Notes under the pieces: model-generated
Database searches by the model: none
Told to the model about the DNA's origin: nothing
What the model saw: the letters and a program-made list of their open reading frames with translations, nothing else
In this document: positions 14,157-30,913 of the stretch, one piece after another
How positions within the stretch are numbered: the stretch's first letter is position 1
Layout: each line of letters starts with the position of its first letter
Virus record (IMG/VR): IMGVR_UViG_3300027733_000034
Coordinates: 1 to 64,000 of that record
Reading direction: 5' to 3' (one strand)
Length of the DNA: 64,000 nt
DNA from: a virus
Position numbers and translations under genes: made by a program

Positions 14157-14157
14157 A

Positions 14158-15525
14158 TTAAACAATTATATCTTTAATTACTTCACCAAAATTATCTGTC
14201 AATCTAAAATTACGACCATTGTAATTGTATGTCAATTTCTTATGATCAAATCCCATCAAGTGCAAAATAGTTGCATGCAAATCATGAATGGTAACAATAT
14301 CTTCAACTGCTTTAGCCCCTGTCTCATCTGTCTTACCGTATCTCATTCCACCTTTGACATTCCCTCCAGCCATCCAGATTGAGAATGCTTTGCCATTGTG
14401 ATCTCTACCAGGAGTACCTGCTCCGCCGCCAGCAGTTGCTGTGCGACCAAATTCTCCGCCCCATATTACCAAAGTAGAATCAAGTAGTCCGCGTTGTTTT
14501 AAGTCTGTAAGCAATCCAGCAATAGCTGTATCGTATTTTGCCGCGGTATTAGTCATATTGAGCTTAATGTTTTCATGATGGTCAAACCCTCCAACATTGA
14601 CCTGAACAAACCGCACTCCTCTTTCTACTAATCTACGAGCCACCATTAACTTGGCTCCGTCTTCTGTACGTCCATAAAGGTCTTTAATATTTTCTGGTTC
14701 TTTAGATACATCAAAAGCATCCGTAGCTTCTGTTTGCATTTTGAATGCAGTTTCAAATGCTTCAATACGAGATTCTAGTTGAATGTCTTTTTGAAGCTTT
14801 TCCATGTGCATGAAATTCATGCTACGAGAAAATTCAATTTGTCTGCGCTGTCTTTCTTGTGTAGAGAATTGACTGGTAAGGTTTGCTAATATCTCATCTG
14901 AACGCATTCCTTGACGATATTGAACATTGCAGCCTTGGAACATTCCGGGTAAGAAAGCACATTGTCTCCAATTTGGATTGCCATTCAAAGAAATGAATCC
15001 GGGCATGTTTTGATTTGCTGTACCAAGACCATATACCATCCAGCTACCAACACTAGGCTTGGGTAATTGAGAATCTCCGGTGTTCATCATCTTAGCAGCG
15101 AGATCGTGATCTGGAATAGGGGTTTGCATAGAGTTAATAATAGCTAACTCATCTGCATGGGATCCTACTTTACTCCATACTTCTGAAATGTTCAATCCAG
15201 ATTTGCCAAACTGAGGGAATTCAAACGGAGAAGCAAATAAGAATCCGCCGCTCTCGGCTTTCATTCCATCTTTGGCTTTTAATTCTGGTTTATAGTCAAA
15301 AGTATCAATATGGGAAGGTGCTCCACTAGCAAACAATTGAATGATTGCCTTAGCTTTTACAGGGAAGTGAGGATTCCTAGCAGCCAGAGGGGATGCAGCT
15401 TCTGCTGTATTTGCATTAATACCATAAAGAGCAGCTAGTGATAGACCACCCAGACCTGCTCCAAAGTCTGTGAGGAATTCTCTACGGTTGAGAGAGGAAT
15501 TGGGATGATTGCCGCAGTCGCTCAT
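14158..15525 (-). CDS. DUF1501 Tat-exported protein
   Basis: 455 residues from the ATG at 15525; the protein then starts with a short polar leader and a twin-arginine signal (N-R-R-E-F-L, followed by a GAGLGGLSLAALYG hydrophobic stretch). DUF1501 features: A-I-I-Q-L-F-A-S-G-A-P-S-H-I-D-T-F-D-Y-K, G-G-F-D-H-H-E-N, T-L-V-I-W-G-G-E-F-G-R-T and G-R-D-H-N. The Asp/His-rich set fits the alkaline-phosphatase/sulfatase-like fold, so a metal-dependent hydrolase is plausible but unproven. It precedes the cytochrome partner by one base (TAA-T-ATG). TATAAATA lies at 15531-15538, six bases before the ATG, and a hairpin lies just upstream, implying a phage promoter. Confidence 0.9.
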   Translation of the reverse strand: MSDCGNHPNSSLNRREFLTDFGAGLGGLSLAALYGINANTAEAASPLAARNPHFPVKAKAIIQLFASGAPSHIDTFDYKPELKAKDGMKAESGGFLFASPFEFPQFGKSGLNISEVWSKVGSHADELAIINSMQTPIPDHDLAAKMMNTGDSQLPKPSVGSWMVYGLGTANQNMPGFISLNGNPNWRQCAFLPGMFQGCNVQYRQGMRSDEILANLTSQFSTQERQRRQIEFSRSMNFMHMEKLQKDIQLESRIEAFETAFKMQTEATDAFDVSKEPENIKDLYGRTEDGAKLMVARRLVERGVRFVQVNVGGFDHHENIKLNMTNTAAKYDTAIAGLLTDLKQRGLLDSTLVIWGGEFGRTATAGGGAGTPGRDHNGKAFSIWMAGGNVKGGMRYGKTDETGAKAVEDIVTIHDLHATILHLMGFDHKKLTYNYNGRNFRLTDNFGEVIKDIIV

Positions 15526-15530
15526 ATAAC

Positions 15531-15538
15531 TATTTATA
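15531..15538 (-). promoter_or_regulatory. TATAAATA box before DUF1501 gene
   Basis: Exact T4-late-type TATAAATA, six bases before the ATG at 15525, downstream of a hairpin. Confidence 0.55.
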
Positions 15539-15549
15539 CCTTTATAGTT

Positions 15550-15583
15550 CAAACGCCTTCAGAACCGAATCTGAAGGCGTTTG
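15550..15583. terminator. Intergenic hairpin upstream of DUF1501 gene
   Basis: CAAACGCCTTCAGA/TCTGAAGGCGTTTG, perfect 14-bp stem and 6-base loop. No good T-run on the minus strand; it may separate the gene at 15605 from the DUF1501 promoter. Confidence 0.5.
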
Positions 15584-18814: not shown

Positions 18815-19552
18815 TTATTTTTTAATAATATCAAATTCCTTACATTCTTTTAATGTATATAAAAAAATAATGTTATTGTATAGAGATTTTAAAATTTCTA
18901 TTTTGTTTTGTTGAGTTTTTACAGCGTATGGGTTTTTTGGATCCAAATATAAATCATATGTAGGAAGATAAAAATCTGGAAAATATTTATGAGTTTGATT
19001 TTCTGAATCCACCCACTGAATAGGTAATGGTCTGATCCAAGAAATTTGAAGATAGTCTAATCTTTTTGCCAGTTCTAATTCCCAAGAAGAATCTAACATT
19101 ATTCCATTATACTCTATCATTCCTTTTTTTAATCTTCTGTGAGAAGAAGATAAAGCTTTTTCTCTTATAAGCTGTTTTGCTTTGTCTGTATGTTTTCTGC
19201 CGAGGAATGCGTTATGTAATACATGAGAATATTTTCCGTTTTTATGGGCTTCTTTAATTTTTTCTTTATGTTCTATAGTTAGAGGCTTTCCTTTGTTTTG
19301 TTTTGTAACTTCTAATATTCGTTTTGATAATTGATTTTTGTCTTCAATAGATCTTGGATTGTAGGAGCACCATCTGCTATGGTTTGCTCGTTGAGATGCA
19401 GATAGAGTTTCAAAGTTTAAATCGCAATATTTACAAGATGAGAGTTTTTGAAATGGCTTGTATGATCCGTTACAAGATGCAAAATGTCTATTAAAATTAG
19501 ACCTTTGATTTCTAAATTCATGATTACATTTAGAACAAATTATTTTTTTCAT
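18815..19552 (-). CDS. Homing endonuclease-like, zinc finger plus PD-(D/E)XK-type
   Basis: 245 residues from the ATG at 19552; the longer frame runs back through a tRNA gene and is discarded. N-terminal zinc-finger-like C-S-K-C...H-F-A-S-C and C-K-Y-C. Middle: basic NUMOD-like helices (TIEHKEKIKEAHKNGKYSH, LGRKHTDKAKQLIREKA). C-terminus: W-E-L-E-L-A-K-R-L...P-D-F-Y-L-P-x-Y-D-L-Y-L-D-P-K, a PD-(D/E)XK arrangement with D-x-K as the last pair. This layout is typical of free-standing phage homing nucleases that insert beside tRNA genes. It starts 12 bases after tRNA-Arg on the same strand. Function as selfish nuclease is inferred from family. Confidence 0.7.
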   Translation of the reverse strand: MKKIICSKCNHEFRNQRSNFNRHFASCNGSYKPFQKLSSCKYCDLNFETLSASQRANHSRWCSYNPRSIEDKNQLSKRILEVTKQNKGKPLTIEHKEKIKEAHKNGKYSHVLHNAFLGRKHTDKAKQLIREKALSSSHRRLKKGMIEYNGIMLDSSWELELAKRLDYLQISWIRPLPIQWVDSENQTHKYFPDFYLPTYDLYLDPKNPYAVKTQQNKIEILKSLYNNIIFLYTLKECKEFDIIKK

Positions 19553-19563
19553 ATTTTTTGAAA

Positions 19564-19638
19564 TGGTGTCGCTGACTGGATTCGAACCAGCAACCAATTT
19601 CTTAGAAGGAAATTGCTCTTCCATTGAGCTACAACGAC
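19564..19638 (-). tRNA. tRNA-Arg (UCU)
   Basis: 75 bases with encoded CCA. Acceptor GTCGTTG/CAGCGAC, anticodon loop CTTCTAA, D-loop with GG, T-loop TTCGAAT: canonical elbow. Reads AGA, fitting AT-rich phage codon use. A homing nuclease gene follows directly. Confidence 0.93.
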
Positions 19639-19670
19639 ATAAACTACTTATCCTAAAATATTATAAAACA

Positions 19671-19700
19671 CTCTTGTCCTATCCATTAAACGATCGAGAC
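19671..19700 (-). pseudogene. tRNA 5'-half remnant
   Basis: On the minus strand, GTCTCGATCGTTTAATGGAT continuing to GGACAAGAG looks like the acceptor, D-arm and start of the anticodon stem of an Asp-like tRNA, after which the similarity stops. A related fragment is at 19761-19790. Confidence 0.4.
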
Positions 19701-19760
19701 ATGTAAAGATTATAGATTTCCAGAGAAGGGAAATCAATGAAAAAGATGTGTTTTCCTCGC

Positions 19761-19790
19761 GAGACTTGTCACATCATTCAACGATCGACT
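19761..19790 (-). pseudogene. Second related tRNA 5'-half remnant
   Basis: Minus strand shares TCGATCGTT, AATG and GACAAG in order with the fragment at 19671-19700, about 80 bases away. The 205 bases between tRNA-Ser and that fragment hold no other recognisable gene. Asp is one of two amino acids lacking an intact tRNA here, so these may be decayed Asp copies. Confidence 0.3.
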
Positions 19791-19905
19791 ACCATACGGC
19801 AATCCAATAACGTCTAAGGCCAGTGTTTAAGAAAGAGCTGGAGATACAAACATAAACTGACCAAAACTTACTCCAGGTTGTCCGGCTATCTAGACCGGCA
19901 CTAAG

Positions 19906-19998
19906 TGGCGGATAGAGTGGGAATTGAACCCACGGTGCCTTTAAGGAGCACGACAGTTTAGCAAACTGCTGTAGAAAACCGACATCTACGTCCCATCC
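19906..19998 (-). tRNA. tRNA-Ser (GCU)
   Basis: 93 bases, class II with long variable arm, CCA encoded. Anticodon loop TTGCTAA, acceptor GGATGGG/CTATCCG-type pairing, T-loop TTCAATT. Canonical. Confidence 0.92.
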
Positions 19999-20003
19999 AA
20001 AAG

Positions 20004-20077
20004 TGGAGCGGGTAGAGGGAATCGAACCCTCCTCATTAGTTTGGAAGACTAAGGCATTACCACTATGCTATACCCGC
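20004..20077 (-). tRNA. tRNA-Gly (UCC)
   Basis: 74 bases with CCA. Anticodon stem TTAGT/ACTAA around loop CTTCCAA; acceptor GCGGGTA/TACCCGC; T-loop TTCGATT. Canonical. Confidence 0.94.
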
Positions 20078-20128
20078 GTGGTGTCCTTTATATGCACAGA
20101 TAAATCTGTACACTAGGGACATTTAAAA

Positions 20129-20204
20129 TGGCACGCCGAGTAGGTACCGCCCCTACATAAGACGGTTTTGGAGACCGTTGCCTTGCTTGTCGAGCCATCG
20201 GCGC
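20129..20204 (-). tRNA. tRNA-Trp (CCA), copy 1, altered elbow
   Basis: 76 bases with CCA. Acceptor GCGCCGA/TCGGCGT, anticodon stem ACGGT/ACCGT with loop CTCCAAA, T-stem GTAGG/CCTAC. The T-loop is GGCGGTA in place of TTCnAnn, and the D-loop (about GACAAGCA) lacks the G18-G19 pair. Identical to the copy at 20751-20826 over the whole gene. Confidence 0.85.
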
Positions 20205-20229
20205 GTCTATACCCGCAATTTGTTGTTCA

Positions 20230-20252
20230 ATCCTTTGGTCTTTGGATTTCAT
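20230..20252 (-). pseudogene. Truncated start of a tagged gene
   Basis: Minus strand reads ATG AAA TCC AAA GAC CAA, nearly the same as the start of the gene at 20259-20720 (ATG AAA ACC AAA GAC CAA), then diverges and runs into tRNA-Trp copy 1. It looks like the leftover of a duplication that carried tRNA-Trp together with the 5' end of the tagged gene. Confidence 0.4.
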
Positions 20253-20258
20253 GTCTTT

Positions 20259-20720
20259 TTATTTATTTAAAGCATAAGTCTGACTAAAGATATCTTTTTT
20301 AATGACTCCGTAATCACCTGGACCATGCTTAACAATATAATCTTCTCCAGTCTTATATTCTAACTCTGCTCCCCAAGAAGTCTTTACTTTGCCGTCTGAA
20401 TCTGCTAGCTTAGCAAGCTTTACAATCTTCTTAGGAGAGGCAGAACCGTCTCCGTTGTCATCCTTCAACTCTTGAAACTTTTCTGGAGGCATAGAATACT
20501 TCTCTCCTTTTGGACCTGTCATAATATAGAACCCAGCTTTGTATTGCTGACGGCCTTCGAGTGTTTGAAGGGTTCCGTCTTGACTAGCTACCTCATAAGG
20601 TTCTATGGCTGGCTTTTTATAGGTCTGAAAAGAACCTTGTTGAAACCATTCATCTGTGATTTGTTCAATAATGATTCTTGTATAAGCTTCTTCTAGAAGT
20701 TGTTGGTCTTTGGTTTTCAT
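20259..20720 (-). CDS. LLEEAY-tagged protein flanked by tRNA-Trp copies
   Basis: 153 residues. N-terminus MKTKDQQLLEEAYTRIIIEQ is the shared tag. The body is a strand-rich ~120-residue part with GFYIMTGPKGEKYSMPPEKF and EDYIVKHGPGDYGVIKKDIF, resembling two small barrel-like units. The gene lies between two identical tRNA-Trp genes, so homologous recombination could delete or amplify it. Possible virion-internal protein if the tag is a capsid-targeting leader (hypothesis). Confidence 0.65.
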   Translation of the reverse strand: MKTKDQQLLEEAYTRIIIEQITDEWFQQGSFQTYKKPAIEPYEVASQDGTLQTLEGRQQYKAGFYIMTGPKGEKYSMPPEKFQELKDDNGDGSASPKKIVKLAKLADSDGKVKTSWGAELEYKTGEDYIVKHGPGDYGVIKKDIFSQTYALNK

Positions 20721-20750
20721 GTTATATGCTTGTTATATGCTTGTTAAGAT

Positions 20751-20826
20751 TGGCACGCCGAGTAGGTACCGCCCCTACATAAGACGGTTTTGGAGACCGT
20801 TGCCTTGCTTGTCGAGCCATCGGCGC
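20751..20826 (-). tRNA. tRNA-Trp (CCA), copy 2, altered elbow
   Basis: Identical to 20129-20204 including the T-loop GGCGGTA. The identity covers little beyond the gene, as expected of a duplication later trimmed by drift, or of selection on the tRNA. Confidence 0.85.
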
Positions 20827-20835
20827 GTTTGAAAG

Positions 20836-20909
20836 TGGCTCCTGGAGTAGGGCTCGAACCTACAACATCCTCGTTAACAGCGAGGCGCTCTACCATTGAG
20901 CTATCCAGG
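20836..20909 (-). tRNA. tRNA-Asn (GUU)
   Basis: 74 bases with CCA. Acceptor TCCTGGA/TCCAGGA, loop CTGTTAA, T-loop TTCGAGC, D-loop with GG. Canonical. Confidence 0.94.
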
Positions 20910-20916
20910 AATGTTG

Positions 20917-21303
20917 TTATCTATTAAGATCGTATTCGTTCATTCTATCTTCTGGAGATTGTGGTAATTCACTTACATCCCGGAAGCCAGGGCCGTATAT
21001 TTGAAACCAACTTCTGTCTGAAGTACCACCATTGTCTAATTCTTTTCCGGTAATCACTTCTACAGCCGTAGCTGGATCATTATGAAATTCTCCTTCTACA
21101 TCAAATCCTAAAGCAAACTTGTCTGATTTTATTTGATTTGCTACGGCATTTTCAAAAGAGCTTCCTTTAAGAGTATACAAATCACCACCGTATTCATCTA
21201 TCTGAGCTACGTACCAAGTGTTGCTTGATTGTGGTTCTGGGTTTTCTTTTAATAGGACCTTTAAATAGGCTTCTTGTAATAACGCTTTGTCTTTAGAATT
21301 CAT
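20917..21303 (-). CDS. LLQEAY-tagged protein
   Basis: 128 residues; MNSKDKALLQEAYLKVLLKE is the tag, followed by a body (WYVAQIDEYGGDLYTLKG, VEGEFHNDPATAVEVITG, SWFQIYGPGFRDVSELP) with no recognised fold. Only the first ~20 residues resemble the other tagged proteins, the signature of a transferable leader. It sits inside the tRNA cluster between tRNA-Pro and tRNA-Asn. Confidence 0.65.
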   Translation of the reverse strand: MNSKDKALLQEAYLKVLLKENPEPQSSNTWYVAQIDEYGGDLYTLKGSSFENAVANQIKSDKFALGFDVEGEFHNDPATAVEVITGKELDNGGTSDRSWFQIYGPGFRDVSELPQSPEDRMNEYDLNR

Positions 21304-21370
21304 GTTTATATTCTTAATTATATTAATATTATATTAAAAGGAAGCATTTGCACGAAAAAATGCAAATTAA

Positions 21371-21445
21371 TGGTCGTGACGGTGAGGATCGAACTCACGT
21401 GGACTAGTTCCCAAAACTAGTGCCTGTCCTCTAGGCTACGTCACG
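21371..21445 (-). tRNA. tRNA-Pro (UGG)
   Basis: 75 bases with CCA. Acceptor CGTGACG/CGTCACG, anticodon stem CTAGT/ACTAG with loop TTTGGGA, T-loop TTCGATC. Canonical. Confidence 0.93.
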
Positions 21446-21451
21446 TTAAAA

Positions 21452-21526
21452 TGGAGCTCAGTATCGGAATCGAACCGATCAACAAGGGTTTTGCAGACCC
21501 TCCCTTAGCCAACTAGGTCACTGAGC
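21452..21526 (-). tRNA. tRNA-Cys (GCA)
   Basis: 75 bases with CCA. Acceptor GCTCAGT/ACTGAGC, anticodon stem AGGGT/ACCCT with loop CTGCAAA, T-loop TTCGATT. Canonical. Confidence 0.93.
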
Positions 21527-21529
21527 AAA

Positions 21530-21603
21530 TGGTTGTCTGGGAAGGTAACGCTCCTTCGTCTTTCGATTATCAGTCGAGAGCTCTACTTTTGAGCTACCAG
21601 ACA
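21530..21603 (-). tRNA. tRNA-Ile (GAU), altered elbow
   Basis: 74 bases with CCA. Acceptor TGTCTGG/CCAGACA, anticodon loop CTGATAA, T-stem GAAGG/CCTTC. The T-loop is AGCGTTA (G at 55) and the D-loop AAAAGTA (A at 18), departing from canonical in the same paired way as tRNA-Trp and tRNA-Glu. Confidence 0.87.
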
Positions 21604-21606
21604 TTT

Positions 21607-21682
21607 TGGTCCCCTAGCTAGGATTTGAACCTAGATCGTCCGAATCACAATCGGAAACACTAAACCTTTGTGCTACTAAGGG
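21607..21682 (-). tRNA. tRNA-His (GUG)
   Basis: About 76 bases with CCA. Anticodon stem CCGA/TCGG with loop TTGTGAT; T-loop TTCAAAT; D-loop with GG. Acceptor CCCTTAG/CTAGGGG has one wobble. The base before the 5' end is C, so the usual G(-1) is not encoded; the exact 5' end is uncertain by one base. Confidence 0.88.
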
Positions 21683-21692
21683 GATATGAAAT

Positions 21693-21769
21693 TGGCAACC
21701 CCAGTCGGATTCGCACCGAACATCTGTTGATTGAAAGTCAACTATCCTAACTAATTAGACGATGAGGTC
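21693..21769 (-). tRNA. tRNA-Glu (UUC), altered elbow
   Basis: 77 bases with CCA. Anticodon stem GTTGA/TCAAC with loop CTTTCAA. The D-loop has TTAGTT where bacterial tRNA-Glu usually has GG (A at 18), and the T-loop is TGCGAAT (G at 55). T54 and A58 remain, so this is the mildest of the altered-elbow tRNAs. Confidence 0.9.
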
Positions 21770-21780
21770 ATTTATAAAAA

Positions 21781-21859
21781 TGGTGGAGCTTATCGGAATC
21801 GAACCGATCTGATATTCTCATTGCAAATGAGATGACCACACCAAGCAGTCCCAAACCCC
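21781..21859 (-). tRNA. tRNA-Ala (UGC)
   Basis: 79 bases with CCA. Acceptor GGGGTTT/AAGCTCC (two wobbles), anticodon stem TCTCA/TGAGA with loop TTTGCAA, T-loop TTCGATT. Oddities: G instead of T at position 8, and a D-stem GACT/GGTC with a nine-base loop. Confidence 0.85.
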
Positions 21860-21866
21860 AATAAAA

Positions 21867-21970
21867 TGGAGCCAACAGTCGGGATTGAACCGACGACCGG
21901 CGGTTTATAAGAACTGTCTCGGTTGGTGACAACTCTCAAAACCGCTGCTCTACCACTGAGCTATGTTGGC
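21867..21970 (-). tRNA. tRNA-Thr (UGU) with 29-base anticodon insertion
   Basis: 104 bases with CCA. Acceptor GCCAACA/TGTTGGC, D-arm GCTC-AGTGGTA-GAGC, T-loop TTCAATC and anticodon stem GCGGT/ACCGC are all intact, and outside the insertion it matches bacterial tRNA-Thr. The anticodon loop is 36 bases instead of 7. Removing 21908-21936 restores TTTGTAA, i.e. anticodon UGU, cut between its second and third base. Functional only if the insert is removed and the halves joined. Confidence 0.88.
21908..21936 (-). other. Intron-like hairpin insert in tRNA-Thr
   Basis: 29 bases on the minus strand: AGAGTTGTC, nine-base loop ACCAACCGA, GACAGTTCT, then TA. The arms pair over 9 bp (two G-T). Too short for a group I intron. 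Pairing leaves a 4+5 base internal loop between the insert and the anticodon stem, where cleavage would have to occur. No second copy of this sequence was noticed in the window. Confidence 0.75.
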
Positions 21971-21982
21971 GAATAATAAAAA

Positions 21983-22058
21983 TGGTGAGCCTGGTTGGAC
22001 TCGAACCAACGACCAACTGGTTAAAAGCCAATTGCTCTGCCAACTGAGCTACAGGCTC
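21983..22058 (-). tRNA. tRNA-Lys (UUU)
   Basis: 76 bases with CCA. Acceptor GAGCCTG/CAGGCTC, loop CTTTTAA, T-loop TTCGAGT, D-loop with GG. Canonical. Lys tRNA is the classic target of the PrrC anticodon nuclease. Confidence 0.94.
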
Positions 22059-22064
22059 TTAAAA

Positions 22065-22152
22065 TGGTGGGTAGTGTGGGTAACGATCCCACAGAGCATT
22101 TACATGCGCCGGTTCTACAAACCGGACCGTCTCCTTAACGGTATAACTACCC
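22065..22152 (-). tRNA. tRNA-Tyr (GUA)
   Basis: 88 bases with CCA and a long variable arm (GCAT/ATGC hairpin). Acceptor GGGTAGT/ACTACCC, anticodon stem CCGGT/ACCGG with loop TTGTAGA. The T-loop is ATCGTTA: T55 and C56 are kept, but the 54-58 pair is A-T, swapped from the usual T-A. Confidence 0.9.
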
Positions 22153-22303
22153 TTTATACAAACTTATATTAAACTATCAAAGAACAAAATTGGTGTGAGA
22201 CTTGTATCTCCGCTGTTAATAATTATAACCGGAAATGTGAGGGAAGCCAACTTTTTTTGTTTTTAACAGTTCACAAACCAGATCCGCAACGGTAAATATT
22301 GTT

Positions 22304-23122
22304 ATGAAATCACGATCTGAGAGATGGAGTATCGGGGCTGGAAAATATAATGAAGAACAATTGAAACAAAGACAAGAAGATTATAACAAAAATCCTGATG
22401 AGTGTTTGTTCTGCAAAAACTCAATGCCATACATTGCTTTATATGAAAGAAACAAACGTAAATTCTGTAATAGATCTTGTGCAGCTAAACACAATAATCA
22501 AAATCGTCTACAATCTAATCTTACGCGCAAAACAAACTTTGTATATCAAAAAGGACTAACAAAAGAAGCATGTTGCATTATTTGTCAAGCAAACATTAAG
22601 ATAGGAAAAAACTATAGTGCAAAGAAGGCTAAATGTGTTGATTGTAAAATAACTAAAACAAAAATTATGATGTGTAAGTGTTGTTCTAAAGAATTTAATA
22701 CGTCTGCTATTCGTAAGTGTTGTTCTGTAGAATGTTCTAAACGTTTAAAACAAAGGGGAGGTAGTCTGGGTGGAAAAATATCAGCTTCAAAGATTGTTAA
22801 AAGATCTAGAGATGAAATAAAATTATATAGTTTCTGTAAAAATTATTTTAATTCTGTAAGACACAATGAAATTATCTCAGATGGTTGGGATGCAGATATC
22901 ATTATAGATGATTACAAATTGGCTATACTCTGGAATGGACCTTGGCATTACAAACAATTGTCACTAAAGAATCATTCTTTAGCTCAAGTACAAAACCGAG
23001 ATAAAATCAAAACAGATGTTCTAACATCAGCTGGATGGAAAGTTTTATTCTTTAATGATAATAAATATACTCCAGAAAAGGCATTTCAATTTATAAAAGA
23101 AAGTTGCAGGGGCGGGATTTGA
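22304..23122 (+). CDS. Vsr-like (EDxHD-type) homing endonuclease
   Basis: 272 residues on the strand opposite to the tRNAs. The N-terminal two thirds carry several zinc-finger Cys clusters (CLFCKNS, FCNRSCAAKH, CCIICQ, KCVDC, CKCCSKEF, KCCSVEC). The C-terminal domain has W-D-A-D-I-I-I-D-D, L-A-I-L-W-N-G-P-W-H-Y, Q-N-R-D-K-I-K and GWKVLFFND, the layout of Vsr-related homing nucleases such as I-Bth0305I. Its last codons overlap the 3' end of the tRNA-Met at 23105, suggesting insertion into or beside that tRNA. Start preceded by GGTAAATATTGTT. Confidence 0.75.
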   Translation: MKSRSERWSIGAGKYNEEQLKQRQEDYNKNPDECLFCKNSMPYIALYERNKRKFCNRSCAAKHNNQNRLQSNLTRKTNFVYQKGLTKEACCIICQANIKIGKNYSAKKAKCVDCKITKTKIMMCKCCSKEFNTSAIRKCCSVECSKRLKQRGGSLGGKISASKIVKRSRDEIKLYSFCKNYFNSVRHNEIISDGWDADIIIDDYKLAILWNGPWHYKQLSLKNHSLAQVQNRDKIKTDVLTSAGWKVLFFNDNKYTPEKAFQFIKESCRGGI

Positions 23123-23193
23123 ACCACTTATGCGCGTTTTAGTAGCTTCTTGGTTATGAGCCAAGCTAGATCGACCAGACTTCTATACCCTGC
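23105..23193 (-). tRNA. tRNA-Met-like (CAU), irregular 3' half
   Basis: Anticodon stem CTTGG/CCAAG with loop CTCATAA, D-arm with CTGG, acceptor GCAGGG pairing with CCCTGC. About 89 bases. The variable/T-arm part is irregular (about 20 bases between anticodon stem and T-arm, T-stem poorly paired) and CCA is not encoded. The 3' end overlaps the homing nuclease gene. It could be Met, initiator Met or Ile2, or partly decayed. Confidence 0.6.
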
Positions 23194-23288
23194 TATTAAG
23201 ATGTGAAAGAACTAACCGCCTTCCCACTTGACGACCCCGCGGTTGATGTAATAATTATACTACAGGGGTTAATGGGAAACCACCTTTT

Positions 23289-23882
23289 TTAAGAAAATTT
23301 TGGAGGAAGTGGTGTAGCTGGGGCTGAGGATGATGTTTTTAGATCTCCTGGAACACTCAAGGTTCTGCCTTTATAGGTGTTAGACAAATATCTAATCAAT
23401 TCTTTAGTCATACTCCAACCGGGTGGAATAACCTGATTATCCGGAAAGTTATTCAAAGTTTTTATCATGTAGAAAACAAAACTATCTTCTACATTATCTG
23501 CAACTATATCTGCTGCTTCATCATCTATATCTATTTTACTTAAGGCATTATTACCTCTAAGGTTGTCAGCTACTTTCATGAATTTTTTAAAAGTAGCCAA
23601 TATCGGTCCAGTAGGATCTAAATACCTTGCAGCTACAGCTTGAGCCATATCACCAGCAGTTTCTATAGCATCCAATGGATCAATTGAGTTCTGCCCTTGA
23701 CCAAAGACTGTTGATCCGACTCCAGCATTAAATGTAGTTTTGATTGCTCCCTTAACAGCAGAACCAACTAACTTTCCAGCCATTTTTTGATTTGCGGCTT
23801 TTTTAATAGCTTGTTTCAAATCTCCAAAGGTAATTGGAGCACTGGTTGCTTCTTTAAGATGAAGATACTGCTGGAAGGTCAT
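23289..23882 (-). CDS. Hypothetical protein with short phage-like leader
   Basis: 197 residues. The start MTFQQYLHLKEA is of the F-x-x-Y/F-L-x-E-A type seen on T4-like internal and scaffold proteins. Then a Gly/Ala-rich helical part (AGKLVGSAVKGAIKTTFNAG), a helical middle and a Pro-rich tail (SAPATPLPPKF). No signal peptide. Possible head-internal protein; not the same leader as the LLEEAY group. Confidence 0.55.
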   Translation of the reverse strand: MTFQQYLHLKEATSAPITFGDLKQAIKKAANQKMAGKLVGSAVKGAIKTTFNAGVGSTVFGQGQNSIDPLDAIETAGDMAQAVAARYLDPTGPILATFKKFMKVADNLRGNNALSKIDIDDEAADIVADNVEDSFVFYMIKTLNNFPDNQVIPPGWSMTKELIRYLSNTYKGRTLSVPGDLKTSSSAPATPLPPKFS

Positions 23883-23914
23883 TTACTTACTTATAAGACA
23901 TAAGTAATAATACC

Positions 23915-24274
23915 ATGATAAGACATCTTAAAGCTCTCAAAGAATCTTTAGAAGGAAAGCCTCTTGCTGTGAGATCTTCTCATTGGTCTACTGTTAGAAA
24001 ACATCATCTTCAAAAACAACCTACCTGTGCGGCTTGTGGGGGTACACAAAAATTACAGGTTCATCACAAACAACCTTATCATTTGCATCCGGACTTAGAA
24101 CTAGAACCTACCAATCTTATTACTCTGTGTGAATATGGAGACATTGATTGTCATTTTAACATAGGTCATTATAGAGATTGGAAATCTTTTAATCCTAATG
24201 TGGAATTAGATGCTGCAGAAGAATTGTCTAGTCTCTCCCAGTGTCACACCACTTCTCAACCAGGTAAACCCTAA
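23915..24274 (+). CDS. HNH endonuclease
   Basis: 119 residues. C-A-A-C-G, then L-Q-V-H-H-K-Q-P-Y, N-L-I-T-L-C and a second zinc part D-C-H-F-N-I-G-H, all in the order of small free-standing HNH nucleases (beta-beta-alpha metal). W-K-S-F-N-P-N-V at the end of the domain is typical of the family. The final ~15 residues (SSLSQCHTTSQPGKP) are read from a repeated GC-rich element (24225-24254), so the original C-terminus may have been replaced. Plus strand inside the tRNA cluster, 32 bases from the divergent gene at 23882. Confidence 0.75.
   Translation: MIRHLKALKESLEGKPLAVRSSHWSTVRKHHLQKQPTCAACGGTQKLQVHHKQPYHLHPDLELEPTNLITLCEYGDIDCHFNIGHYRDWKSFNPNVELDAAEELSSLSQCHTTSQPGKP
24225..24254 (+). repeat. 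30-base direct repeat, copy 1
   Basis: Starts TGTCTAGTCTCTCC and ends TCACACCACTT; 28 of 30 bases identical to the copy at 24342-24371. It overlaps the 3' end of the HNH gene and lies in a segment visibly richer in G+C than its surroundings. Confidence 0.7.
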
Positions 24275-24516
24275 GGAATCCTTAATCAAGCTCAGAGAGG
24301 CCTTCAGCCTTCGGCAGGTGTCACTCCCCAATTGGGGGAAGTGTCTAGTCTCTCCTAGAGTCACACCACTTGTATCGCCCGGATATGTCCAGGCCGTTCT
24401 CCTCCGTGATAACCACAGAAGAGGCAGGTGTCGCAATCTCAGCAGGGTTTACGGTCTGCTACGTTCCAATTACAGACTTACCTAAATACCAGAGGGGTCG
24501 TGGTTACTGAGAAAAG
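24275..24516. other. GC-rich structured intergenic segment
   Basis: No convincing gene. Contains palindrome CTCCCCAATTGGGGGA (24323-24338), two GGCAGGTGTC motifs (24313, 24423) and the second 30-base repeat, so two ~110-base units of A-then-B order. On the minus strand each 30-base repeat can fold as a TCTAG/CTAGA-type hairpin. It may be a structured RNA or remnant of a mobile element brought with the HNH gene. Confidence 0.45.
24342..24371 (+). repeat. 30-base direct repeat, copy 2
   Basis: 28/30 match to 24225-24254, 117 bases downstream, differing at two positions. Confidence 0.7.
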
Positions 24517-24592
24517 TGGTGCTTGGGGTGGGACTCGAACCCACGATAATCTGCGTGTAAAGCAGGTACTTTAGCCACTAAGTTACCCAAGC
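24517..24592 (-). tRNA. tRNA-Val (UAC)
   Basis: 76 bases with CCA. Acceptor GCTTGGG/CCCAAGC, anticodon stem CTGC/GCAG with loop TTTACAC, T-loop TTCGAGT. Canonical elbow. Confidence 0.93.
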
Positions 24593-24606
24593 ATAAAAAG
24601 TAAAAA

Positions 24607-24677
24607 TAGGCCTGGGTGGAGTCGAACCACCACTACCTCTTTCAAAGAGAGGTGCACTGCCATTATGCAACAGGCCT
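24607..24677 (-). tRNA. tRNA-Gln (UUG), no encoded CCA
   Basis: 71 bases. Acceptor AGGCCTG/CAGGCCT, anticodon stem CCTCT/AGAGG with loop CTTTGAA, T-loop TTCGACT. CCA is absent (T-run follows discriminator A), unlike most of the cluster. Confidence 0.92.
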
Positions 24678-24678
24678 G

Positions 24679-24702
24679 TGTTGCCATTATACCAATGGAC
24701 TA
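24679..24702 (-). pseudogene. tRNA 5'-half remnant
   Basis: Minus strand TATAGTCCATTGGTATAATG then GCAACA looks like an acceptor and D-arm of a Gln- or Gly-like tRNA that ends where an anticodon stem should be, directly before the intact tRNA-Gln. Confidence 0.35.
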
Positions 24703-24711
24703 TAAAAAAAG

Positions 24712-24783
24712 TGGACCCGGTTGGATTCGAACCAACAACCCGGGTGTTATGAGCACCACGCTCTGCCCTTGAGCTACAGGTCC
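24712..24783 (-). tRNA. tRNA with CAU anticodon (Met or Ile2)
   Basis: 72 bases. Acceptor GGACCTG/CGGGTCC, anticodon stem GGTG/CACC with loop CTCATAA, T-loop TTCGAAT. CCA not encoded. Met, initiator or lysidine-modified Ile2 cannot be separated by eye. Confidence 0.9.
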
Positions 24784-24817
24784 ATTACTTACAAATTAAA
24801 ATATCAAAGATCAAAGA

Positions 24818-24894
24818 TGGTACTCCTAGCTGGATTCGAACCAGCACTACACAAATTTTAAGTTTGTTGACTCTGCCCGTTGGTCTATAGGAGC
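24818..24894 (-). tRNA. tRNA with UAA anticodon (Leu), class I shape
   Basis: 77 bases with CCA. Anticodon stem ACAAA/TTTGT with loop CTTAAAA reads UUA. Acceptor GCTCCTA/TAGGAGT, T-loop TTCGAAT. The variable region is only about five bases (GTAGT), whereas bacterial tRNA-Leu has a long variable arm, so charging identity is unclear. Confidence 0.85.
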
Positions 24895-25501: not shown

Positions 25502-25603
25502 TGTCTTCAGGTTGGATTCGAACCAACGGCGAGCGCTTTATCCCGGCATTTTGGCCCTTAACCATGAGGGAGCACTAGATCTACCAGCTGAGTTACTGAA
25601 GAC
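25502..25603 (-). tRNA. tRNA-like gene with enlarged anticodon region
   Basis: 102 bases without CCA. Acceptor GTCTTCA/TGAAGAC pairs over 7 bp, T-arm GTTGG-TTCGAAT-CCAAC is canonical and AGCTGGTAGA is a standard D-loop. The middle is too long: stem GTGCT/AGCGC closes a 33-base loop with internal complementary runs (CCCT/AGGG, GGC/GCC). I cannot assign an anticodon. It may be a second insertion-bearing tRNA or a decayed gene. Confidence 0.55.
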
Positions 25604-26435: not shown

Positions 26436-27056
26436 TTATGGATGGTGTAGGTTGTTAACATCTTTAGTGTCCATGATGGCTTCTACTTCCGCAAAACTTA
26501 GAGGCTTGCCATGGACATCCCAACCGCAATCTAGGATCTTATGAGTCTTGTTTTCTGGTCGAGAGATAGGCAGAGTGCCGTGAGAATGTCCGCAGAGGTG
26601 CATACCACCATCAGACATACCATCCCAGCTGTGAATGGGAAAATGAAAACAAACAAAAGTCTTTCTACCTTTTCTAAAGGTAAAATAATGATGCAAATAA
26701 CGCACCATAGTTCCTCGAATAGAACCAGCTATTTGATGAACAGAACCTCCATAGGATTTCTGAATAGGGTTGTTATGATTACCCCACAACATCCAAACAG
26801 CTTTAACCTTCAGCTGGAACATAATACTTTGATACTGTTCTAAAGAAGTATTAAGACAAAAGTCTCCTAGATGTAGAAGAATACCATTTTCTCCAACAGT
26901 TTCATTAATGATACGAATCATATCTTGATTCATCTCTTCTGGATTTTGATAACCTCTCTTTCCATAGAGAAATTCTTTATTATGCCCGAAGTGGGTATCT
27001 GAAGTAACATACAAATTATTGTATTCTTCTTCTGGCATTTTGTAAATTACTTGCAT
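26436..27056 (-). CDS. Calcineurin-like metallophosphoesterase
   Basis: 206 residues with all five motifs in order: S-D-T-H-F-G-H (~19-25), H-L-G-D-F, W-G-N-H-N, H-F-P-I-H and C-G-H-S-H-G. These supply the two-metal site of the superfamily. Substrate cannot be told: related phage enzymes act on 2',3'-cyclic phosphates, cyclic dinucleotides or DNA/RNA ends. Its nearness to the kinase and ligases (27295-30913) makes an RNA 3'-end-healing role attractive but unproven. Divergent from the plus-strand gene at 27069, whose CATAAATA box overlaps this gene's start. Confidence 0.85.
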   Translation of the reverse strand: MQVIYKMPEEEYNNLYVTSDTHFGHNKEFLYGKRGYQNPEEMNQDMIRIINETVGENGILLHLGDFCLNTSLEQYQSIMFQLKVKAVWMLWGNHNNPIQKSYGGSVHQIAGSIRGTMVRYLHHYFTFRKGRKTFVCFHFPIHSWDGMSDGGMHLCGHSHGTLPISRPENKTHKILDCGWDVHGKPLSFAEVEAIMDTKDVNNLHHP

Positions 27057-27068: not shown

Positions 27069-27338
27069 ATGAAATTTGATGCTCTAGTCAACACTCTTTT
27101 AGAAAAACATAACCAACCTTGTACAAAGGTGACTGGTCAACAACAGTCCTCGCGTAAAGACAAGAAATATATGAGATGTGCTAGAGTCAATGGTAAACTT
27201 AAACGGGTTCATTATGGGGATCCTAATATGAGAATTAAAAAGTCAAATCCAAAGAGAAGAAAGAGTTTCCGGGCAAGACATGGTTGTGCAGATGCTAAAC
27301 CCGGAACTCCAAAATATTTTTCTTGCAAGAATTGGTGA
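27069..27338 (+). CDS. Conserved-type basic phage protein
   Basis: 89 residues; MKFDALVNTLLEKHNQ leader, then very basic R-V-H-Y-G-D-P-N-M-R-I-K-K, P-K-R-R-K-S-F-R-A-R-H and Y-F-S-C-K-N-W. The HYGDP...RRKSFRARHGC...SCKxW combination recurs in marine and T4-like phages (from memory); function unknown, a capsid or core-associated protein is likely. Convergent overlap with the RNA ligase gene by 44 bases. Confidence 0.7.
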   Translation: MKFDALVNTLLEKHNQPCTKVTGQQQSSRKDKKYMRCARVNGKLKRVHYGDPNMRIKKSNPKRRKSFRARHGCADAKPGTPKYFSCKNW

Positions 27339-28422
27339 TATAAGTCTTCCACAGCTTGTGCGGATCTAATTCTTTTCCATCCAGGATGGAAAAACCAATC
27401 CAACTATAATCAGGAAACAACTCCAATATTTTTTGAGCTTTTCCTTTACGGTCTAAAGATATAAAATCTGGATTAATTAAATATACATTTATCTGCATTA
27501 TCTTATATGTAATCAATCTAATCTTATCATATAGCTCATCCATTAGAGGTTTCAAAGCAGTTACTAACTCCCAATCAAAATTGTCAGCTAGTTTCTTTTC
27601 AAAATCTTCTCTAACTGGTTGGCCATATTCCACAAACAGATCAAACAAATGATCGACAGTCTTGACTCCTGTAAATACTCGATGCAAGTACAAATATCGA
27701 GGAGTCTTGACTTTCTTTAAAATTTGTCCGTTGTTGGCATAGATAACAACTCCTTCTATAGAGGTTTCATCCTTAAGATACTCGGCTACATTTTGTAAAT
27801 TTAAAGTGTATCTTTCTGGACGTAACACGCCAAAAAATCTTGCTTGCTGATCTAAAGCATCTTGAGGAAGATAATAATACGGATCATGCTTACCCATAAA
27901 TGAATAAGAGTCGTGTCCTACAATACCAATAAGCCACAAAGTAGGTTCTTCAGATTCCCGAAGAACAATGCGATTAGTAGGAGTAGTCCATTCAAATAAA
28001 AGTGAAAACTTTTCAGAGTCTAACCAAAAATTATTAAAGGCATCAGGATACTTGGTTTTCAGCAATTCTATTTCATGTCCGTTTTCTAACTGAGATGCAT
28101 CTATAGTCCCACGGGTACGAACAATAAGCTCACCATTATGTCGAGACACAATTAAGAGACTTCCATCAAGTTTGCGGATAAATTCTAGGTCCGTATGGTC
28201 GTCTATAGGTTCAAATTCTGGTTGTTCTCCTAGATTTACAAACTTTTTAAAACCAGCAGACACGAGCTTTCTATCAGACTTACGCCAGATAGAAGAACGA
28301 AAGATTTTGTTTTCGTCTGTCCAAGTTACCCCCATGTCTTTAGGGGTAACCAAGATGCATTCATCTCCAGCTACTATACAATCTTTGATGTTAAAATTGG
28401 TTACATCAATTGGCTGAAACAT
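27295..28422 (-). CDS. RNA ligase, T4 Rnl1-like
   Basis: 375 residues. Nucleotidyltransferase motifs: I K84-L-D-G-S, III L-L-F-E144-W, IV E223-G-V-V and V L-K-K-V-K (~235-239). Length and spacing fit the T4 RNA ligase 1 group: a ligase that seals 3'-OH/5'-PO4 RNA ends using ATP, in T4 repairing host tRNA-Lys cut by an anticodon nuclease. The C-terminal ~130 residues are helical. A second ligase of a different subfamily lies 1.5 kb away, and a P-loop kinase sits next to that one. Confidence 0.82.
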   Translation of the reverse strand: MFQPIDVTNFNIKDCIVAGDECILVTPKDMGVTWTDENKIFRSSIWRKSDRKLVSAGFKKFVNLGEQPEFEPIDDHTDLEFIRKLDGSLLIVSRHNGELIVRTRGTIDASQLENGHEIELLKTKYPDAFNNFWLDSEKFSLLFEWTTPTNRIVLRESEEPTLWLIGIVGHDSYSFMGKHDPYYYLPQDALDQQARFFGVLRPERYTLNLQNVAEYLKDETSIEGVVIYANNGQILKKVKTPRYLYLHRVFTGVKTVDHLFDLFVEYGQPVREDFEKKLADNFDWELVTALKPLMDELYDKIRLITYKIMQINVYLINPDFISLDRKGKAQKILELFPDYSWIGFSILDGKELDPHKLWKTYITNSCKKNILEFRV

Positions 28423-29475: not shown

Positions 29476-29880
29476 CTATGAAAGATAAGTTGCCCATCTA
29501 TTTTTCATCACTTCAATAGTTTTTTCCGGAACATTATGAATGCTTCCGTAATTTCCATTCATCTGTCTAATATCTATTGGAACATTCAGCTTACTAGCCA
29601 AATCTGCATATGGTCTGAATTCTCTCTTGGTAGAAAATGTATTTGATACAATAACATTAAACTCTTGCTTCAAAGCTACTTCTGTCATAAACAGACACCA
29701 CTCATGAGCGTGTTTGAGAAGAGATGCATTGAATTTATATTCTCCGGTTATAGAATGCACAAAGAACATATCTGCTTCAAACCAACGAAAATTTTCTGGG
29801 TCTGTATTGAGGAGTCTTTGAGCTTCTGTAGATTTTCCAGAACCAGGTAATCCACGGATGATATAAAGAGTATTTTTCAT
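29476..29880 (-). CDS. P-loop kinase, polynucleotide kinase-like
   Basis: 134 residues. Walker A G-L-P-G-S-G-K-S-T at 10-18; acidic F-E-A-D-M-F-F following the first helix; a C-terminal R-W. This is the AAA_33/T4 Pnk-type kinase fold, without the phosphatase half of T4 Pnkp. Likely transfers phosphate to a 5'-OH of RNA or another small substrate. It lies two bases upstream of... in reading order directly after the RNA ligase at 29882, the arrangement expected for RNA-end repair. Confidence 0.78.
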   Translation of the reverse strand: MKNTLYIIRGLPGSGKSTEAQRLLNTDPENFRWFEADMFFVHSITGEYKFNASLLKHAHEWCLFMTEVALKQEFNVIVSNTFSTKREFRPYADLASKLNVPIDIRQMNGNYGSIHNVPEKTIEVMKNRWATYLS

Positions 29881-29881
29881 T

Positions 29882-30913
29882 TTAATCTTTGAAATTTTGA
29901 TTAATAATTTTTACACTAAGCATTTTCTGTAATTTCTTACTATACATCAATTCATTATTTTGATTATAACCACGGAAGACAATGCCTTCTGCTGGTTTAT
30001 CATTAGGATACTTGATAGTATTGACCCAATTTTGCAATTCATCTATAGTTGAGAGGTTGAAATGTTTAAATAATTTAACAACTGGAACTCCTGGAATATT
30101 TGAATCAACTCCTAGACCATCGACCCAATTCAAAGGAAGAACTGGCTTCCGAGAAGGTACTTCAAACATGTTAAAGAGATATAAACTAACCTCTGGATAA
30201 CCAGCTGGATTACCTTGAATACCAGGTCCAGCAATTTCTCCTTGAATACAAAATCCAGGTTTAAGATTTTCTTGGATATTATATTTTCGAGCCATTTTCC
30301 AGTATACATTTTCGGTAGTATCTTTAAGCTCTAGATTACGAGAACAAACTCGAAAAGTACCATCCAATTCTTTAATATAAGTTGCAGAGGTTCCATCTAT
30401 TTTAAGAGTAGCTTCTACCCATTCAGCTTCTCCCAATTCATCTAATGCTTCTATGTTAGATTTAAGATTGTCTTCATCCGTTTTAGAAACCAAATGAGTG
30501 GGAAAGTCTCCTTTAACTTGTCCGGCTAGTTGAACTGGAATTGGTTTTTCATATTTGGTAATACCAAGCATACTAGCCAGAGAAACATCTTCAGAAGAAT
30601 CATCCATATGATCCCAGACTTCTTGAGCACTAACCAAAGTCTTAGGAAAGATGAGACCTTGAGAAATAGCTCCGCGAAGCTTGGCGGTCTTAACTCGGAT
30701 AGGTTTAGAAGGATCATTCTTATCCCAAAGAAATTTATTCCATTCTCTAGGAGTGAGGACGGTATCAATAGGAACAAAAATAATTTGATCACCTATTTTA
30801 TATTCATCTTTCTTGATAACACTTTGCCAACCCAGAACTCTAGCCAGTTCAATTTTATCGGCTCCTTCTATAGGAAGAATTTCTGAGATAATTTCTAGAG
30901 ATGCTAATTTCAT
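29882..30913 (-). CDS. RNA ligase, DRB0094/Rnl5-like
   Basis: 343 residues. N-terminal domain (~1-110; LASLEIISEILPIEGADKIE, DQIIFVPIDTVL) of the OB-like type found in the DRB0094 ligase family. Ligase domain: motif I L-K171-I-D-G-T, Ia S-R-N-L-E-L-K-D, III I-Q-G-E-I-A-G, IV A-E-G-I-V-F-R-G, V L-S-V-K. ATP-dependent sealing of nicked RNA, often 3'-OH RNA in duplex. Different subfamily from the ligase at 27295. First gene of a leftward set with kinase, membrane proteins and ligase 1. Confidence 0.85.
   Translation of the reverse strand: MKLASLEIISEILPIEGADKIELARVLGWQSVIKKDEYKIGDQIIFVPIDTVLTPREWNKFLWDKNDPSKPIRVKTAKLRGAISQGLIFPKTLVSAQEVWDHMDDSSEDVSLASMLGITKYEKPIPVQLAGQVKGDFPTHLVSKTDEDNLKSNIEALDELGEAEWVEATLKIDGTSATYIKELDGTFRVCSRNLELKDTTENVYWKMARKYNIQENLKPGFCIQGEIAGPGIQGNPAGYPEVSLYLFNMFEVPSRKPVLPLNWVDGLGVDSNIPGVPVVKLFKHFNLSTIDELQNWVNTIKYPNDKPAEGIVFRGYNQNNELMYSKKLQKMLSVKIINQNFKD

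Follow-up and report, generated by a model that had tools for sequence, protein, structure and literature searches.

Why should a phage tRNA gene with every arm intact carry 29 extra nucleotides inside its anticodon, and could these be removed from the transcript to give a working tRNA? Textbooks credit bacteria with self-splicing tRNA introns only. The gene in question is a tRNA-Thr(UGU) gene on the minus strand, at 21970-21867, of a window of 64,000 nucleotides (the whole stretch of DNA that was analysed, positions 1 to 64,000 of IMG/VR record IMGVR_UViG_3300027733_000034). The record as a whole, a fragment of 131,532 bases, comes from a T4-like lake phage; families of the major head protein, the portal, DNA polymerase and UvsX are recognised in the record. 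Within its tRNA cluster the gene encodes a full tRNA, CCA included, laid out as GCCAACA-TA-GCTCAGTGGTAGAGC-A-GCGGT-[loop]-ACCGC-CGGTC-GTCGGTTCAATCCCGAC-TGTTGGC-T-CCA, with all four stems fully paired and an anticodon loop of 36 bases. The Rfam tRNA model scores 58.6 bits over 21870-21970 and assigns the extra bases to the anticodon loop. ARAGORN makes no call for the interrupted gene, so routine tRNA annotation misses genes of this kind. The cluster and the parts of the gene are arranged as follows.

19564-24894, minus strand: tRNA cluster, comprising 17 ARAGORN calls and the interrupted tRNA-Thr.
21937-21970, minus strand: 5' exon of tRNA-Thr(UGU), with the acceptor strand, D arm, 5' anticodon stem and loop bases TTTG (to anticodon position 35).
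21908-21936, minus strand: insert of 29 nt, AGAGTTGTCACCAACCGAGACAGTTCTTA, a predicted 9-bp hairpin with a 9-nt loop that prolongs the anticodon stem in the precursor.
21867-21907, minus strand: 3' exon of tRNA-Thr(UGU), with TAA (anticodon position 36 on), the 3' anticodon stem, T arm, acceptor strand, T73 and CCA.

The precursor therefore measures 104 nt, and the joined exons measure 75 nt with the loop TTTGTAA, the junction lying between GCGGTTTTG and TAAACCGC. Sequence alone leaves the placement ambiguous, as several 29-base removals yield a 7-base loop (TTTATAA, TTTGTAA or TTTGAAA). The insert-free orthologue of a related phage (L244), however, reads TTTGTAA and aligns to the window gene with one clean 29-nt gap between TTTG and TAA; the insert thus spans 21908-21936 and separates anticodon position 35 from position 36. 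Ser(UGA), Ile(UAU) and the other anticodons obtained by other placements are ruled out by the same orthologous loop. The original prediction, which had described intact arms with CCA, a 36-base loop, an insert self-pairing over 9 bp and the restoration of TTTGTAA on removal of 21908-21936, is borne out by the Rfam score and pairing, by the fold prediction and, exactly as regards the boundaries, by the orthologue. Its reading of a short insert, not of group I, that splits the anticodon of a tRNA-Thr(UGU) intact in all other respects likewise holds, the insert being 29 nt long and without an Rfam intron match.

A second assembly, L122 (IMGVR_UViG_3300009158_000053), contains the same gene without a difference and matches the window record at 99.986% over 21 kb. 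This excludes a one-off assembly error; however, the L122 copy represents the same lineage and is not independent. Duplicated insert-bearing contigs are near-identical along their whole length, and their comparison carries no information on conservation. With up to 3 mismatches allowed, the window contains a single copy of the insert, and within 2.65 Mb of fetched loci its only other copy lies in the near-identical contig. A mobile repeat was rejected on these grounds.

The comparison with related phages that had been suggested at the outset did reveal insert-free alleles. Relatives were retrieved by a search with the major head protein of the window record; a search via the RNA ligase returned just the near-identical contig and one fragment without the Thr gene. 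The related phage whose orthologue fixes the boundaries, G013 (IMGVR_UViG_3300027770_000027, 227,352 bases), has a tRNA cluster with an insert-free tRNA-Thr(UGU), which reads GCCAGCA...GTGGT TTTGTAA ACCAC CGGTC...TGTTGGC TCCA. The joined exons are identical to this allele at 72 of 75 bases, and all three differences preserve pairing: the acceptor stem has A-U versus G.U, and one compensatory pair of the anticodon stem differs in both of its bases. A second relative (L250) reads GCGGT TTTGTAA ACCGC, i.e., the window's own stem without the insert. On this comparison of sequences, the interrupted gene most simply derives from a clean insertion into a working tRNA-Thr(UGU) gene.

Whether the gene still works is the next point. 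Among the 11 isoacceptors shared with G013, the joined-exon tRNA-Thr (96.0%) ties with tRNA-Asn (96.0%) as the most similar, the rest ranging from 57 to 95%. This identity, together with the perfect stems, gives no sign of decay and speaks against an old pseudogene, and the decaying copies in relatives by which the original prediction would have recognised a pseudogene have so far not appeared; the evidence is to the contrary. ARAGORN and Rfam identified no other tRNA-Thr in the 131.5-kb record, in whose counted ORFs ACA accounts for 792 of 2354 Thr codons. Still, a recent insertion would leave the exons looking intact even in a dead gene. It is accordingly conceivable, if unlikely, that a chance insertion such as a recombination or endonuclease scar disrupted the gene recently, leaving an unspliced, non-functional tRNA whose task the host Thr tRNAs suffice to perform. 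The cluster is full of homing-type endonucleases (endonuclease-like ORFs at 18815-19624, 22304-23122 and 23915-24274), two more of its tRNAs look aberrant (23103-23195 and 25503-25602), and the exact insert is known from one lineage only. Against such a disruption stand the perfectly paired stems and the close match to the insert-free allele, the exact boundaries with no exon bases lost, and the interruption of the same position elsewhere (UG^U in the Thr genes of L124 and L130, and possibly just past UGU in that of L107).

The aberrant-looking genes merit description in their own right. At 23103-23195 (minus strand) lies a 93-nt tRNA-Met gene whose variable region measures 20 nt; at its 3' end the gene overlaps the convergent HNH-like ORF at 22304-23122, and it was possibly remodelled by insertion of the endonuclease gene. 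The atypical tRNA-like gene of about 100 nt at 25503-25602 (minus strand) has CTCATGGTTAAGGGCC mid-gene, is nearly identical in G013 (95433-95532) and shares its outline with L023, L028 and L052. Additionally, a pair of tRNA-Trp-like copies at 20132-20204 and 20754-20826 (minus strand), 97.6% identical to each other, displays a CTCCAAA loop and a non-canonical T loop, and ARAGORN makes no call for either. Farther along, at 11193-15552 (minus strand), the window contains a planctomycete-type gene (PSCyt1/PSCyt2/PSD1, 990 aa) with an adjacent 464-aa gene, a pair whose DNA is 85% identical in the relative L141; this is unusual phage cargo, which may hint at the host.

The precursor is predicted to fold as a cloverleaf at -41.1 kcal/mol (z = -5.35 versus shuffles), in which the insert, by itself a predicted 9-bp hairpin, turns the anticodon arm into a helix of 18 bp that has a single bulged U and ends in a 9-base loop. 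Shuffled inserts are equally stable in 7.1% of cases alone and in 1.2% inside the precursor; in these models the pairing of the hairpin is only moderately beyond chance and not extraordinary by itself. The predicted fold would bury the anticodon in the 18-bp helix, a feature that would also suit a nuclease decoy or tRNA mimic. Phage tRNAs have been proposed to evade anticodon nucleases (PMC10264068), the tRNA-like domain of YrlA was left uncut by one such nuclease and has been proposed to inhibit it competitively (PMC7790460), and Flavobacterium has, beside RtcB, tRNA-like genes in which a hairpin separates position 28 from position 29. However, the insert of the window gene lies at 35/36 rather than 28/29, the loop formed by its exons has precisely the Thr anticodon found in a normal orthologue, the record contains no Ro/TROVE gene, and no Y-RNA match reaches the gathering score. 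A decoy is for these reasons regarded as improbable.

The 28/29 genes form classes of their own among the matches of the scans. The commoner viral class (L027, L042, L045, L051, L061, L071, L089, L109, L116 and others) has an insert of 42-54 nt at 28/29, typically a hairpin followed by CAGCAA, which interrupts the anticodon stem; the insert of L042 has no match in Rfam. Flavobacterium loci (18 found, among them L272 and L302) and L278 (Saprospiraceae) contain tRNA-Lys/Arg-like genes with a conserved hairpin insert at 28/29, which ARAGORN misses in 5 of 5 loci checked. These bacterial genes adjoin an RtcB gene (seen for L272 and L278) and a gene for a conserved protein of about 746 aa, and are probably tRNA mimics that resemble Y RNAs and belong to an RNA repair operon. 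The CAGCAA inserts at 28/29 were set apart from the candidate introns, the Flavobacterium copies beside RtcB suggesting tRNA mimics. Long matches resembling tRNA-Ile(UAU) (L125, L126, L131-L133, L136, L137, L139 and alphaproteobacterial loci), which have different acceptor stems and the common core GCGGATTTATACCCCGTCAGCGCCAGATAAGCGGC, were likewise rejected as inserts, their loop being normal and their variable arm long.

Removal of the insert would require a nuclease and a ligase. The record encodes the RNA ligases, kinase and phosphoesterase that had been anticipated, as identified by Pfam, PHROG and PDB matches.

27295-28422, minus strand: T4 Rnl1-type RNA ligase, 375 aa, candidate sealer (PF09511, 1.4e-14; phrog_562; PDB T4 RNA ligase 1 chains, about 4e-10).
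29882-30913, minus strand: second RNA ligase, 343 aa, Naegleria RNA-ligase-like (OB fold and RNA_ligase), candidate sealer (PF21189/PF09414; phrog_968; PDB 5cot, 1.7e-40).
29476-29880, minus strand: AAA_33 / polynucleotide-kinase-like protein, 134 aa (PF13671, 3.4e-11; phrog_2071, 1e-29; phrog_505 polynucleotide kinase, 1.7e-10).
26436-27056, minus strand: calcineurin-like phosphoesterase, 206 aa (PF00149, 2.7e-05; phrog_547, 1.3e-34).

The kinase-like gene lies directly downstream of the second ligase gene, and the phosphoesterase is a possible end-healing enzyme that may be tied to tRNA repair. An RNA ligase was found in 9 of 11 insert-bearing records, the two without being the smallest (fragments of 29 and 45 kb), and in 2 of 4 insert-free relatives; all of these counts are lower bounds, given that the genome search missed one window-record ligase seen by hmmscan. 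Large phages commonly have RNA ligases for tRNA repair, and thus the presence of ligases is not specific evidence for splicing. A tRNA-splicing endonuclease (PF01974) was detected in none of 16 phage records, including the window record (G000), and RNase III (PF14622) was not detected in the window record, which is perhaps incomplete. The hidden anticodon, the ligases and the kinase within one phage could also be read as a regulated pro-tRNA, in which a host nuclease attacking the arm frees the anticodon and a phage ligase produces a needed spare tRNA-Thr. The chemistry of T4-type tRNA repair is established; nevertheless, we infer each step of such regulation and know of no trigger nuclease, and this explanation appears very improbable.

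Further intact phage tRNAs with short anticodon-loop inserts were sought by pattern scans of 2.9 million viral contigs, which give at-least counts, and by a structural scan of the fetched loci. Since exact consensus D and T arms were required, the counts are lower bounds and not rates. Among the matches listed, the inserts are either plain hairpins or nested (mini-)tRNAs. The L107/L150 phage has two plain hairpins, one of 28 nt in a tRNA that gives TTTGT^AA if read as Thr and the other in tRNA-Asn (L150, CTG^TTAA); additional plain hairpins are found in L129 (Asn, 30 nt) and L134 (Gly, 42 nt). In L006, L082, L046, L148 and L124, the insert starts at the first base of a nested 7-bp acceptor stem (7 of 7 pairs) and ends at the discriminator base or CCA, or in L124 two bases beyond the stem, and its removal yields a 7-base loop with a sensible anticodon. 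The boundaries are alike in L130 and L029, with 6 of 7 acceptor pairs, and in L097, which was read by eye (CCCGGAA pairs with TTCCGGG, followed by ACCA). L130/L155 displays a nested tRNA gene inside the anticodon loop of another tRNA gene, and the nested RNA of L148, L124 and L130 consists of no more than an acceptor stem with a T arm. The outer gene of L124 and L130 is also Thr, interrupted at UG^U like the window gene.

The agreement between the ends of nested inserts and those of mature tRNAs is hard to explain unless the inserts are removed, and this pattern of sequence suggests that RNase P and 3' processing excise the inserts before ligation. RNase P would cut the 5' end, and RNase Z or 3' trimming the 3' end; the outer halves would be left with a 3'-OH and a 5'-phosphate, which phage RNA ligases could seal directly. 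ATP-dependent RNA ligases join 3'-OH to 5'-phosphate ends. In contrast to this class, whose ends are mature tRNA ends with a 7-bp acceptor and T arm, the window insert has neither a T arm nor an acceptor, and the route through RNase P and 3' processing is therefore not directly applicable to it. Rfam contains no ribozyme or intron match at the window locus or at six other tRNA-insert loci. A D-loop control pattern of equal stringency produced no real D-loop insert among 17 viral matches, all of which arise from a partial tRNA that precedes a normal tRNA, with 2-5 of 7 outer acceptor pairs. The inserts thus favour the anticodon loop, where the halves can be re-ligated. When applied to cellular genomes, the anticodon-loop pattern returned mostly archaeal introns, most at 37/38 (NNNA^), and in bacteria chiefly the Flavobacterium tRNA-like gene with its 28/29 insert. 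No literature reports on nested tRNAs or on split tRNAs in phages were found.

For the window gene we propose, at about even chances and by comparison of sequences, a short protein-dependent tRNA intron that is cut by a host or unrecognised endonuclease and sealed by one or both of the phage's RNA ligases. The precursor would form a full cloverleaf, in which the insert hairpin prolongs the anticodon arm and conceals the anticodon. A host endonuclease, or an unrecognised one of the phage, would then cut out the 29 nt that separate the anticodon's U-G from its U while the remaining arms hold the tRNA halves together, and a phage RNA ligase, of the Rnl1 or Naegleria type, would seal them. The kinase and phosphoesterase could mend the ends if needed, which would result in a normal 75-nt tRNA-Thr(UGU). 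Splicing is favoured by the insert-free orthologue, the undecayed exons, the status as sole tRNA-Thr, the ligases and kinase, and the recurrence of such inserts in other phages; it is weakened by the lack of a PF01974 or RNase III gene in the record, the moderate hairpin and the unspecific ligases. Host RNase III is one candidate cutter, albeit a doubtful one, because the arm is modelled as a helix of 18 bp and excision of the insert would liberate a hairpin with a 2-nt 3' overhang. The L107 tRNA, if read as Thr, has the same cut geometry (a 2-base 3' overhang) in its predicted fold, and such RNase III-like geometry at two modelled loci could coincide by chance. More tentatively, phages may in general possess a splicing of short anticodon-loop tRNA inserts that is neither ribozyme-based nor archaeal, with a helix-specific nuclease acting on hairpins and tRNA end-processing enzymes on nested inserts.

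If the insert is spliced, bacterial cells hold another tRNA-splicing route, via phage repair ligases, and these ligases would gain a second, constructive role, with a testable prediction for host enzymes. Short phage tRNA inserts, seen since the Lak megaphages, are now found in several phage lineages, all in the anticodon loop.

The known systems resemble the window gene in different respects. Group I introns also interrupt tRNA anticodon loops or stems, but they are ribozymes of hundreds of bases; a group I intron was rejected here, as the insert is 29 nt against more than about 200 nt and only tRNA scores above the Rfam gathering cutoff at the locus. The archaeal and eukaryal tRNA introns are closer in that a short anticodon-loop insert requires an endonuclease and a ligase. 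However, their canonical site is 37/38 rather than 35/36, the archaeal bulge-helix-bulge contrasts with a continuous predicted 18-bp helix bearing a single 1-nt bulge, and their splicing endonuclease family is the one detected in none of the 16 phage records. In T4 tRNA repair (anticodon nuclease, Pnkp, Rnl1), phage enzymes likewise join halves cut in the anticodon loop, yet T4 mends host damage, whereas in the window tRNA the cut would eliminate an insert that the gene encodes. Bacterial Y RNAs (YrlA) share the tRNA-like body, the extra hairpins and the link to RNA repair, but the window gene sits among ordinary tRNA genes without a Ro partner or family match. With no Ro/TROVE gene in the window record and the best Rfam Y-RNA score overlapping the gene (YrlA, 25.2 bits) far under the gathering cutoff of 69, identity as a Y RNA was rejected.

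The nearest precedent is that of the Lak megaphages. Devoto et al. 2019 (PMC6784885) describe conserved introns in Lak tRNAs, called enigmatic; the intron that interrupts tRNA-Thr(TGT) is possibly a tRNA gene in its own right, and other phages have alleles free of it. The premise of the original prediction that phage tRNA introns are of group I only is incomplete in the light of that report. A 2021 follow-up mentions merely that introns occur in Lak tRNAs (PMC8346664), and the literature searched, with the 2019 report represented by excerpts, offered no splicing mechanism for them. The window gene resembles the described Lak genes in having a short insert in an intact phage tRNA-Thr and insert-free alleles in related phages; it differs in that its insert is a plain 29-nt hairpin rather than a possible tRNA, and in that its T4-like lake phage lies outside the Lak group. 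The window gene thus belongs to an already noticed kind, of which the hairpin form in another phage group is new.
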